IMG/VR virus record: IMGVR_UViG_3300036791_000706
Span: 1-35,158 of that record
Source of the DNA: a virus
Length of the DNA: 35,158 bases
Direction: 5' to 3' (one strand)
This document shows, in pieces, positions 3,031 to 34,974 of the stretch. The position numbers were made by a program, and so were the translations under genes. The notes under the pieces are model-generated. The model did not search any database and was not told the DNA's origin. It worked only from the letters and a program-made list of their open reading frames with translations. The stretch's first letter is position 1, and every line of letters starts with the position of its first letter.

Positions 3031-6000
3031 GGTGTTGTCCTCCCTAGAATGGCCTCGTTGTAACCGGAACCGTTGGCTTTGCAGTGATAGATGTAGCGGT
3101 CATCCGCCCAAATCTCTCCCGCCCCGTGGCCTTTGCAGTTGCGCCGCGCGGTCATCACAGAGGCGGTGAGGCTGGTGGGTGCAGCGGGCCTCGTCGTGCC
3201 CGCTCCTGGCGGCGCTTCGACGTGGTTGGTGGTGCCGTCGCACCATACCTCGTTGCCGTCGTTGTAAAAACCCCATCCGGCCTGCGTGCAGGCGCTCCCG
3301 TTGGCGGGCGCGGTTGCCCCGCTATTCAGTGGCGCGGCGGTGTAAATATACTGGCCGCCGATGGCCACGCCGTTCGCTCCCAACATCACTAGTGCGTTTG
3401 CGGTGCTTTCGAGAACGATTTGAGTCGATGCGGCTATGTGGAAGGTCTGATATTGATTCTCGATATACGCTAGCTGTGCGTTCGATGCGTCGAGAAAACT
3501 CTGGTAAAGATACCGCCCCGAAACTGGCCTCTGATTGATCGCCACGCTATGAAAAATCTGCGTTCCATTGATCGCTTCCAGCCCGTTCATGTACATGGTG
3601 ATGTAGGTAAAAGCGGTGCTGTCATCAGGCGGATTATTGACGACCAACGCTCCGTTGGGCGTGTTGTTGACGGACGGCGACGCGATAATGGTAGGCGCTA
3701 ATCTGTTGCCTTTTGCATAGCTGAACTGTGCCGCCATCGAAGATGGGATGCCCGAGGGAGAAATCTGCACGTCTCCCTGAATCTGCCAGCCGGAACTAAG
3801 AGTTCCGGCGTCTGGACCGCCAAGGAAGGTGCCGGGACACATTTGCTGGATGCTCGACGCATAGCTTTGCGCGAAGAGAAAGCCGCACTGGAAGTCGGTG
3901 AAGAATGATCCGTGAATCAGATTGTCCACCACCACCACATTCTTAACCGGCCCTGTCCAATGCAGCACCGCTCCCATCGTGTACTGCCCTCCGCCCCAGG
4001 TGTAAGTAGCGTCGGTCGTGGTGTTTTTGCCAAAGATGAAATCGCGCGGGGAATAGCCTCCCATCTGCGCGCCGTTGAGGACATACAACAAAGTCGAACC
4101 CGCAGACATAGGGTGGTTGTCGGTCAAGTTGTAATAAAAGGTGTCGTTAGCCGAAGTCGCTATCATGCCCGCGAGCACGTTGTCGCCATTGTTCCAAGTT
4201 GCTCCGGTGTCTTCGACCTTAAGCTCCTGCCCATCTATGCCGGGAACTGCTCCATAGTTGCAGGTTGAACTGCACCGCACGTCCAGCACCCGCGCGCCCT
4301 GATAGATGTGGACCGCGCCAACTCCTCCGATGGCCGCGTCCATGCCGATCTGTGCTTGGCGCGCCACAATCAAGGTGTTGTTGGCCGTCGATCCCAGGAC
4401 GTAGTACGTCGCGTGGGCGTTCCATGTGACGCTTTGCACGCTGGCATCCGTCACCAGAAAATGACAGGCCATGCCGCCGATATACAACTTTGCTCCTGCG
4501 TCGTGATGCTCGCTCAGCAGCATCGTGACTTGCTGCGTTCCCCCGCTGAAGGTTCCCAACGCTTGAATCGTTCCGCACTCCACGCTGACATTGCCCGCAA
4601 ACTCGGCTGCCGTTCCTACCAGGGAGGTGCCGCCCGCTCCCGCAGTCTTGAGGTCAACCGTAGTGTTAACCGTGAACGCCATCGATGTTTTGGTTTGCTC
4701 CGTAGTAGTCGGCGGCTGAATAGCGGCTGTCGTCGTCACCATTCTGGAGACCGGGTAATTCGTCAGAGTCATGGTTAGGGTGGATGAGCCATCACCCGTC
4801 AGTGCTTGCCCGATTGCGGTGTCGGCAATGACTCCAGTGGTGGTGTTGAGCAACTGCCGCATCACGCCGATTCCGCCCGCTTGGTTGTAGAGATAGAGCT
4901 TGCTATATCCCAGCGTGGCATGATGCTCTCCGTTCTGCCATAGCGTCGCGTGAAATTCGCTCCCTCCGATTGTGTTGATCCAGCGCACATTATGAATCCC
5001 CTCGTCTGCGCTCGAATCCTGCCCGCCGTATTCGTTGTCAATTTGCAAGTCAATCGTCTGGGCATCGCCCCTGCCCAGGTCGAAAATTTGCGCGCTTATC
5101 AGGGATTTATTGATCGATGCGCTAGCGAAGGTCGCGATAATGTTGAACAGTGTTTCTCCAAACCATCCGCTCGGCTGCGCGGGGGAAATGGCCCCGTAAT
5201 AAAAGCCGGGGACATCGAAGTTGAGATTGATTCCCATGCAGGTTTGAACGGTGGGCGGGGTCGTGCCGGGGTTATCGGAACCGGGCAGGTTCTTGCTGGC
5301 GAGACAGTCAAATTGATAATTGGCGATGCCGTTGGCGCTGAAGCCGGGGTTCTGCGATTTGAGATGAAAGCGCCCCTGACGGTTATCCTCCCAAAGAATC
5401 CGGTCATTGGTCGCCGTGTCGATGATCGCTTGTTCCCACGTGCTGTAGTTCGGCTCTATGCGGATCGCGCCGGGTCCATTGGGTCCAATCGCTGTCTGCG
5501 CATTAGCGATGCCGTTGCTGTTGTTATTGCCGGGGCCGGGTGGGACGGTGCTTGAACCAGTTGCGGAGTATTCGTTGAGTCCGAACTGCTGATTCCAGAT
5601 CGCGCCCGGAACTGTAAGGTCATTGGGCGTGGCTCCCTGGCCCCAATTGGCGTGTCCCTGCGCGTAGCTGGTGCCGGACCCCGTACCGTTATAGACAGCG
5701 GCCTTGTACTGTGGGCCGGTGCCTCCTGCGCCTCCGCCGCTTCCGGGCGTGGAGCACGTGCCGTCGCTGTTGAGTGTGCCGCTGCATCCCCACAGTGCGG
5801 CGACATCCGCAGAGGTGGCCGGTCGCGAGGTGCTGTTATTCACACCGTAGACGACGGCTCCTGAGGGGAATGACCCGCCGCTAACGACGGCGCTATAGTG
5901 CGTGCCGTTCCATTCGTAGTAGGTGAAGGGCACCACTCGCTGGTCTTGGATGTGGGTGCCGCTGCATCCCCCGGTTACGCTCGTGGGGGTGTCGGTGGTG

Positions 6001-20753: not shown

Positions 20754-22150
20754 TTAACTGATCGTGCTGACTGCATCGATGTAGCGGATGCGCTGCACCG
20801 GGTCGGGTGGAAGGGTCGCCGTGTACATGGTGTTGTAGCTGGCGAATCCGCCAATCATGCGCGAAGGATCGTAGCCACTCGGCTCCGTCAAGCGGCGCAC
20901 CCAAACGTTCATGTTGCGCCAATTGCCGTCACCAATTTGCGTGTTTTCCTTCGCGCCAAAACTCACGCCGATAACGCCATCCTTGCCGACAAGGTAGGTG
21001 CGGAGTCCGGTCTGCGTGGTGCCGCTGTAGTTGGGGGTTTGCTTGACTAGCGTGGATTGGAAGAATGTTGCTCCCGCCCAATCCAACACCGTCACGGCGT
21101 CACCGTCCGGCGAAGGCAACTCCTTGAGCCGCTCGTTGCCCTGCGCGGTGCGCTTCAGCACGTCCACCAGAGAATTGTTGGTGGTGTCCACGAGCACATC
21201 GCCGACTGTGAAGGGGTGCGTGATGCCGAAGTAGCGTCCGTCTTCAAAGGGCAGGGCATTGACGCCTTGCAGGGATTGGACGGCGGTGGTGATGTCGGTG
21301 GTTTTGACAGTGGCCGCGCCCACCTTCGAGAGATGGCCCACCAGCGCATCGATTGCGTTGGCTCCATCGGCGGTGTTCTGGATGATGAGGTTGATCACCT
21401 GCGAGAGCCGATAGGCCATCTGCACTCCCAGCGCTTCCAGCGCGGGGTCGATGGCGGTCTGGATCGCGTACGTCGAGATGTTGGCGTAATCGGCATAGTT
21501 CGGGCCGTTGCGAGTAGACCGTTGCCGTCTACTCTCTTGCGGTCGCCCGCAAGTCCAGACTATCTTTTCATCCTCATGTGAGGATGCTCCGCGCTTCGGT
21601 TCCACTTGGAACCTACTCCCTTTCGGGATAGTCGTTGCACCTTCCGATTGCTCGGCTTGGCTCAGGATTGTCTGCATGAGAGTTCCCCTGAATTCACGGA
21701 GTTTTTCGATACCCATTACTGGATAAAGCGGCAATTTTGTTTACCGATGGTGGAGGTGTTCTGCACAACCGTCACGGTTAAACCCGTTTGGATCGTGCCT
21801 TCAGGTGCCTGCGTCAGCGGTGGAGCGGGTAAATTTTGGTACATAAAAAGGACGAGCTTATTGCCGCTGTTCTCATCCAGTGATCGCCGCGAGGTGAGCC
21901 GCACCCAAGCGGTGTTCGCCTTCAGGTTCTCAATGAACACCTTGTCGAACTGCGTGACAACCGACTGCGGCAGGTTGGTGGTGAGGTTCGATGCTGGCGA
22001 GACGCCAACACCCAACACGAGGGCATAGCTTTTGCTCATGCCCAGGTAGGCAATCGCGCTGGTTCCGAAGGCCAGCAAAAACTCGATTACCGGGATAACG
22101 AATCTGCGGAAGAATTGCTCACCGCTCCGCGCGGCCTGTGTGTCTCGCAT
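20754..22150 (-). CDS. Major capsid protein, split by a group I intron: join(20754..21500, 21743..22150)
   Basis: Exon 1 (22150 to 21743, 136 codons) and exon 2 (21500 to 20754, 248 codons plus stop) rejoin in frame to a 384-residue protein. Exon 1 holds LPQSVVTQFDKVFIENLKAN and an RRSLDENSGNKLVLFMY stretch, as in the N-arm of HK97-fold podoviral capsids ('...pknsGntv-f..y'). Exon 2 begins NYADYANISTYAIQTAIDP, matching the conserved 'xYGdyxxxsdxxxxTaiDP' of this family. Across the junction the protein reads TIG|NYADYANIS, natural for the family. Without splicing, translation stops at TAA 21716-21718. GAGGG lies 7 bases before the ATG; the first 37 residues include a hydrophobic segment, so a later start at 22039 (MSKSYALV) is conceivable but lacks a ribosome site. 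Function: forms the icosahedral head shell. It sits downstream of the scaffold-like gene, as expected. Confidence 0.85.
21501..21742 (-). ncRNA. Group I self-splicing intron (subgroup IA-like), 242 bases, no encoded endonuclease
   Basis: On the minus strand the core elements are all visible. P1: exon CGGU (21746-21743) plus AA pairs with UUGCCG (21734-21729), with a U-G pair at the splice site. P2: UAUCC/GGGUA (21725-21721, 21714-21710). P3: CUCCGUG (21701-21695) with CGCGGAG (21593-21587). P4: UUCAGG/CCUGAG (21692-21687, 21666-21661). P6a: CCGA-GCAA-UCGG (21655-21644). P7: GACUAU (21633-21628) with AUAGUC (21563-21558). P7.1 and P7.2 hairpins at 21627-21618 and 21613-21598, typical of subgroup IA. 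P8: 21586-21569. P9: CUUGCGG-GCGA-CCGCAAG (21553-21536). P9.1: 21534-21512. The last base is the terminal G at 21501, and GG just after P7 can pair with CC before it (P9.0). Splicing restores the capsid frame. Confidence 0.92.
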
Positions 22151-34509: not shown

Positions 34510-34974
34510 ATGCCCGATGCCGCGTACAGGTTGATTCGCGTCGGATCGCTGCTAACGAAGCACGGGCGGCGCATGGCGATTGTGGATGAGGCCGACTATG
34601 CGGCGCTGGTGTGGCGGAAGTGGAGCCTGCGGCGCGCGGAAGCCGGGAACTACTATGCGGCGACAACGGATAAGGGCCGAACGGTCGAGATGCACCGGCT
34701 TGTGCTGGGGATAGAGGACCCCAGCGTCTACGTCGATCACCTGGACGGCTTCGGGCTGAACAATCGCCGGTACAACCTGCTGCCGGGGACGCCGGAAGCG
34801 AACGCGGCCACCCGGAAGCGCTGGATGGTCGAGCGCAACCGGATGACGGGGCTGCATGAGGTTGTGGTGTACACTGCTGCGGGTCACAAGACGGTCGTAG
34901 GCGCGTTTGGGAGCTATTCCGAGGCCCATGACGAGCGATACCGGAAGAAAGCCTACTGGAGCGCGTGGGAATAG
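34510..34974 (+). CDS. HNH endonuclease
   Basis: A 154-residue protein from the ATG at 34510, with AAGGG 6 bases upstream; a longer frame back to 34069 runs over the zinc-ribbon gene and has no support. HNH motif: YVDHLDGFGLNNRRYNLLPG (residues 76-95), with D-H, N and the later N/K residues (ANAATRKR) of the phage homing type. An AP2-like C-terminal segment is possible (LHEVVVYTAAGHKTVVGAFG, then SYSEAHDERYRKK), as in homing endonucleases that use an AP2 domain to bind DNA. Family knowledge: nicks or cuts phage DNA at specific sites and spreads itself or nearby introns. It is free-standing. Confidence 0.85.
   Translation: MPDAAYRLIRVGSLLTKHGRRMAIVDEADYAALVWRKWSLRRAEAGNYYAATTDKGRTVEMHRLVLGIEDPSVYVDHLDGFGLNNRRYNLLPGTPEANAATRKRWMVERNRMTGLHEVVVYTAAGHKTVVGAFGSYSEAHDERYRKKAYWSAWE

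Follow-up and report, generated by a model that had tools for sequence, protein, structure and literature searches.

A compact group I intron in a phage major capsid protein gene and a sister intron elsewhere in the same gene of a relative

The intron and its host gene

The window, by which we mean the entire analysed stretch of 35,158 nucleotides from a soil-type phage (IMG/VR record IMGVR_UViG_3300036791_000706), carries on its minus strand a gene whose two exons are separated by 242 nt (Table 1). We consider it almost certain that the interrupting segment, 21742 to 21501, belongs to the splicing group I introns of phage IA type, lacks an endonuclease gene and resides within a major capsid protein (MCP) gene. 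The fold, the boundaries, the reading frame restored by its removal and the empty sites in relatives are all evident from sequence. The Rfam model Intron_gpI (RF00028) matches the minus strand from 21752 to 21536 with a score of 78.8 bits (gathering score, 50; E = 1.3e-18) over all 253 model positions (1–253), and this is the sole Rfam match in the window as well as the sole group I match in the record. Exon 1 ends with ACC ATC GGU, the final U standing opposite G of the guide GCCG, and the last base of the intron is G, after which exon 2 opens with the codon AAC. Hence, both the U·G pair at the end of the 5' exon and the terminal G that group I introns require are present. Excision of the 242 nt fuses the two open frames at the junction TIG/NYADYANIS (the slash marking the splice junction). 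Reading of the frames within the 242 nt revealed one that stays open over the whole length but none for an endonuclease, and the intron does not belong to the mobile introns equipped with their own homing endonuclease.

Table 1. Features of the intron-bearing capsid gene in the window and exon junctions of the two insertion sites
Feature	Position	Strand	Evidence
Exon 1 of the MCP gene, 136 codons from the ATG at 22150	21743..22150	minus	Open frame; N-terminus conserved in relatives; weak phrog_1357 match alone
Group I intron, 242 nt	21501..21742	minus	RF00028; fold; covariation; empty site in relatives
Exon 2 of the MCP gene, opening with AAC TAT GCC, 248 codons and a stop	20754..21500	minus	phrog_1357 match of the spliced form; intronless homologues
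Internal guide sequence GCCG, pairing with CGGU of the 5' exon (P1)	21729..21732	minus	Sequence reading; inside the RF00028 P1 region
5' end of the intron, AAACAAAAUU, P10 partner	21733..21742	minus	Pairing counts with 3' exons
P7, 5' strand GACUA (partner UAGUC at 21558-21562)	21629..21633	minus	RF00028 alignment; invariant in 37 cores
P7, 3' strand UAGUC	21558..21562	minus	RF00028 alignment; 37 cores
P7.1 and P7.2 hairpins, subgroup IA type	21598..21628	minus	Minimum free energy (MFE) structure; counted P7.2 pairs all vary on both sides
P9 and P9.1 hairpins	21512..21553	minus	MFE structure; four compensatory pair changes relative to the L007 intron
Exon junctions of the two sites, ATCGGT/AACTATGCC and ATCGGT/GGTTTTGCT

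The host gene is assigned to a phage MCP because the joined exons match a capsid family. The spliced coding sequence from the ATG at 22150 specifies 384 amino acids, and this start is supported by the first 37 N-terminal residues being kept in relatives. A spliced form of 347 amino acids matches phrog_1357 ('major head protein') with E = 7e-9; exon 1 alone matches it weakly (E = 8.6e-4) and exon 2 alone gave no match in the same family search. Among annotated phage proteins, the closest is the major head protein from Tunturi_3, a soil phage of Tunturiibacter (42.8%). For the intronless homologue L002, the best PDB match to a structural model was the capsid of phage N4 (E = 5.9e-4), which counts as weak support only as the AlphaFold capsid model is poor (mean pLDDT 46.8). 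The adjacent gene encodes a portal protein of the SU10 type, and a virion of podoviral type as well as a host among the acidobacteria are plausible.

Thirty-one relatives were found in IMG/VR. In 26 intronless alleles the junction could be read, and all of these are uninterrupted across the position occupied in the window (site 1), where 25 of them read TIGNYAD and one VIGNYAD. Only one of the 31 relatives, L007, gave a group I match, and in a wider scan from which 80 relatives were kept a lengthened match was confined to the contig of L007 itself. The base triplet preceding the junction in the 26 intronless alleles is GGC, GGA or GGG, with GGT in L003 only; the intron-bearing allele has GGT, which is needed for the U·G pair.

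The original prediction, made from the letters of the window alone, had placed a group I intron at 21501–21742 of the MCP gene, with the boundaries and the restored frame described above, a spliced product of 384 residues and no endonuclease frame, and all of this holds. Of the checks it proposed, the covariance-model search gave the RF00028 match above the gathering score, and the comparison with homologues yielded capsid relatives without extra residues that are continuous across the junction.

By analogy with the family, the RNA would fold into a P1–P9.1 ribozyme in which an exogenous G attacks after the U of the 5'-exon CGGU while this is paired with the guide GCCG. The released exon would then attack after the terminal G of the intron, whereby TIG and NYAD are joined in the 384-residue capsid protein. 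Capsid protein is required in hundreds of copies, and splicing in a capsid gene must therefore be efficient. At site 1 efficiency could be limited, as P1 runs into a mismatch after 4 bp and P10 is weak.

Fold and covariation

The intron has an MFE of -90.5 kcal/mol compared with a mean of -66.7 for shuffled sequences (z = -5.2), and none of 200 shuffles was as low. The MFE structure, obtained without guidance, holds P2, P3, P4, P5, P6/P6a, P7.1, P7.2, P8, P9 and P9.1. With P7.1 and P7.2 as extra helices between P7 and P3 the intron falls into subgroup IA, to which it had been assigned at the outset on account of the same two helices, of which P7.2 also covaries. When 37 related cores were aligned, 97.4% of the cells were paired, as opposed to 83.1% after shuffling and 35–46% when the partners were slid. 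Both sides had changed in 18 of 40 pairs, which amounts to 223 such cells where 66 were expected. P3 is paired to 100% with four of its seven pairs doubly changed, and every pair of P7.2 and P8 is doubly changed; P4 and P7 are invariant across the 37 cores and thus uninformative on covariation. The cores had been gathered by exact matching to a pattern that covers parts of P4, P6 and P7, and were later trimmed at conserved motifs, so that the pattern fixes its own stretches of these helices by construction. The covariation falls in P3, P5, P6a, P7.2 and P8, that is, outside those stretches.

Comparison with the L007 intron points in the same direction. Among 66 pairs, 58 are unchanged, five show compensatory changes, one is altered on one side (U·G to U-A) and two contain gaps owing to a 3-nt deletion in P8; not a single pair is broken by substitution. 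These data bear on the idea that the segment is a decaying group I intron which has lost splicing, in a defective phage. The shortness of P1 and the weakness of P10 would suit such a state, but P7 is intact, no substitution relative to the L007 intron breaks the fold, both exon frames are intact, and the capsid protein and its L002 counterpart share 94% identity. We therefore regard decay as very improbable. Equally hard to credit is a model in which the intron stays unspliced and two separate capsid half-proteins are made. It draws on a TAATG at 21714–21718 (minus strand) inside P2, where the TAA that ends the exon-1 frame overlaps an ATG whose frame is open across the intron and on through exon 2. 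The corresponding frame of L007, however, is out of frame with exon 2 and thus not conserved, all intronless relatives encode one continuous protein, and compensatory changes maintain the ribozyme fold. A conserved fusion protein translated through the intron was rejected on the same grounds, as the L007 frame does not continue into exon 2.

A sister intron at a second site and possible routes of movement

The L007 intron (L007:3949–4189) is 241 nt long and 92% identical to that of the window, and it interrupts a capsid gene whose product is 89% identical (76% at the DNA level). It is located at a different position, however, namely at codon 353, after RMIG and before GFAS (MIG/GFAS; site 2), compared with codon 136 for site 1. 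Site 1 is empty in L007 and site 2 is empty in the window. Given an intron identity of 92% at different sites, compared with a gene identity of only 76%, the data point to a change of site within this intron lineage. In the intron tree the window and L007 group together (100/97), and in the capsid tree the window groups with the intronless L002 (100/99); the window intron is probably a recent arrival. Among 100 introns sharing the core (see below), these two form the only pair with a core identity above 0.86 and full-length non-homologous flanks as compared by blastp, the flanks of one further listed pair being unusable. A search with two subfamily-specific patterns detected no third copy beyond that of L007.

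Sites 1 and 2 share exactly six bases of the 5' exon, ATCGGT, which adjoin the guide pairing, and nothing downstream (Table 1). An overlap of this size has a chance of about 3e-4 per random site pair in these two genes. Reverse splicing requires a guide match of 4–6 nt and leaves a shared 5' exon as its signature, and sister introns at non-homologous sites that have only the guide-side 5' exon in common are what we find here. Relocation by this pathway is, to our knowledge, without direct proof; the argument for it comes from rDNA introns (PMC1299323). On this circumstantial evidence we suggest, with rather more doubt than confidence, that an ORF-less intron relocated through RNA within one capsid gene, guided only by the ATCGGT match.

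The P10 pairings provide a hint as to the order of the two sites. The L007 intron pairs with its own 3' exon over 7 contiguous bp (GGUUUUG). The window intron would likewise form 7 bp with this site-2 exon of L007, but its own 3' exon offers it just 2 contiguous bp, and the 5' ends of both introns reach just 1–2 contiguous bp with site 1. Since both introns are better suited to the site-2 exon, it is more likely that site 2 (L007) is the older location and that site 1 (window) was occupied later.

Alternatively, both introns may have homed at the DNA level with the aid of a separate endonuclease (collaborative homing) instead of by reverse splicing. Immediately behind the capsid gene that holds the L007 intron, a free-standing HNH/endonuclease VII-like gene lies in antisense orientation (L007:4255–4956, minus strand); according to this model, its product cleaved an allele lacking the intron, and the break was mended by joint copying of intron, 3' exon and HNH gene. 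HNH homologues occupy the same slot in L006, where the frame is broken, and in L167. Moreover, the final ~150 nt of the L007 capsid coding sequence are mostly 58–75% identical to those of relatives, compared with about 70–88% elsewhere, a pattern resembling co-conversion, and the region downstream of the gene aligns with L006 and not with L002 or the window. The terminal 6–8 bases also differ between the two introns, and these different ends, together with the exon divergence beside the HNH gene, point to DNA-level homing for at least the L007 copy. Yet collaborative homing leaves the presence of the same intron at a non-homologous site in the window unexplained, and in L006 and L167 the HNH gene is present while the intron is absent. 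We take collaborative homing of both copies to be a serious possibility, albeit somewhat short of an even chance. As the window record has no match to the L007 HNH gene, and the sequence around site 1 lacks a divergent tract, reverse splicing is the better account of the window copy, whereas the L007 copy may have come by endonuclease-assisted conversion. What probability is not taken up by reverse splicing lies with collaborative homing and with unsampled donors.

Two further observations concern the vicinity of the introns and the far end of the window. In L007, the heptamer TGATCGG is present at 3941–3947, at the end of the 5' exon, and again at 4184–4190, across the 3' end of the intron; the pair resembles a short direct repeat flanking an insertion and may be due to chance. 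Near the contig end, the window itself contains a free-standing HNH gene (34510–34971, plus strand) with homologues of 68–73% identity in L002, L004 and L007. Because of these homologues it is not tied to the intron, and it was rejected as the mobiliser of the window intron, as intronless relatives possess it too.

Since nearly identical introns occupy two positions in this one gene, and empty alleles are known for each, reverse splicing and endonuclease-assisted homing become directly testable against one another. If true, relocation through RNA would extend to a protein gene of phages a pathway that has so far been argued mainly from rDNA introns.

Capsid genes as hosts and comparison with known introns

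The frequency of capsid genes as intron hosts was assessed in an IMG/VR scan with an intron-core pattern that was chosen blind to the host gene, and that gave 94 loci (L033–L126) which, with six bacterial ones, make up the 100 loci referred to above. MCP coding sequences belonging to several different PHROGs were present in the flanks of at least 53 of the 100 loci, a count to be read with the provisos that flanks were about 1 kb long, so that a few MCP genes may be neighbours and not hosts, that some loci are not independent of others, and that the pattern samples one intron subfamily. In uncultured phages, no other gene was identified beside this intron core as often as MCP. In annotated phages, the closest nameable matches are in or beside genes for terminase, DNA polymerase, primase/helicase or tail tube. 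A recent study (2025) asks why phage introns colonise only genes of nucleotide and DNA metabolism (PMC11878797). The predominance of MCP among uncultured phages suggests that this restriction may reflect the choice of cultured phages. One of the scanned loci, L101, has a DNA polymerase gene (about 3944–4971 of the reverse complement) in which both an intein and a group I intron of this family seem to reside.

The original prediction was right to name MCP as the host gene, but the view that such a host is unusual calls for qualification, as MCP genes are no rare hosts of such introns in light of published capsid introns (PMC3706429) and the abundance of MCP genes in the scan. What exceeds the routine is rather this abundance of capsid hosts, along with the apparent relocation within one gene. 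The open-access literature yielded no paper on this intron or on relocation within one phage gene.

The closest published parallel is found in the cluster J mycobacteriophage LittleE, where a probable group I intron likewise splits the major capsid gene, intronless relatives exist, and a U precedes the 5' site and a G marks the 3' end; its splicing was confirmed by RT-PCR (PMC3706429). A capsid-gene intron is also present in Tuc2009, as cited in that paper. The LittleE intron differs in its length of 819 bp, its endonuclease frame and its residence in a siphovirus of a high-GC Gram-positive host, whereas that of the window measures 242 nt, lacks an endonuclease gene and has a sister at another position of its host gene. 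A 156-bp part of the LittleE intron recurs with 98% identity in a tail gene of phage BAKA, within an intron region that has no ORF (PMC3706429), which provides a phage precedent for intron movement between genes.

The IA introns of Twort, SPBc2 bnrdE and T4-like DNA polymerase genes have the same P7.1/P7.2 architecture and match the window intron in blastn with 71–76% identity over 53–62% of its length. Unlike it, phage IA introns are reported mainly from genes of DNA and nucleotide metabolism (PMC11878797), and they are often larger and furnished with endonuclease genes. Nearer in host gene is the compact intron of L037 (IMG/VR), which interrupts an MCP of phrog_1357 close to the capsid C-terminus and is 86% identical over 107 nt; it is inserted after DPL, uses another guide and belongs to a distant capsid protein. 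With regard to movement, the best counterparts are the candidates for reverse splicing in fungal rDNA, where related ORF-less introns at separate positions within one gene region likewise share no more than 4–8 nt of the 5' exon (PMC1299323). Those introns reside in eukaryotic rRNA genes, whereas the pair described here resides in a protein gene of phages.
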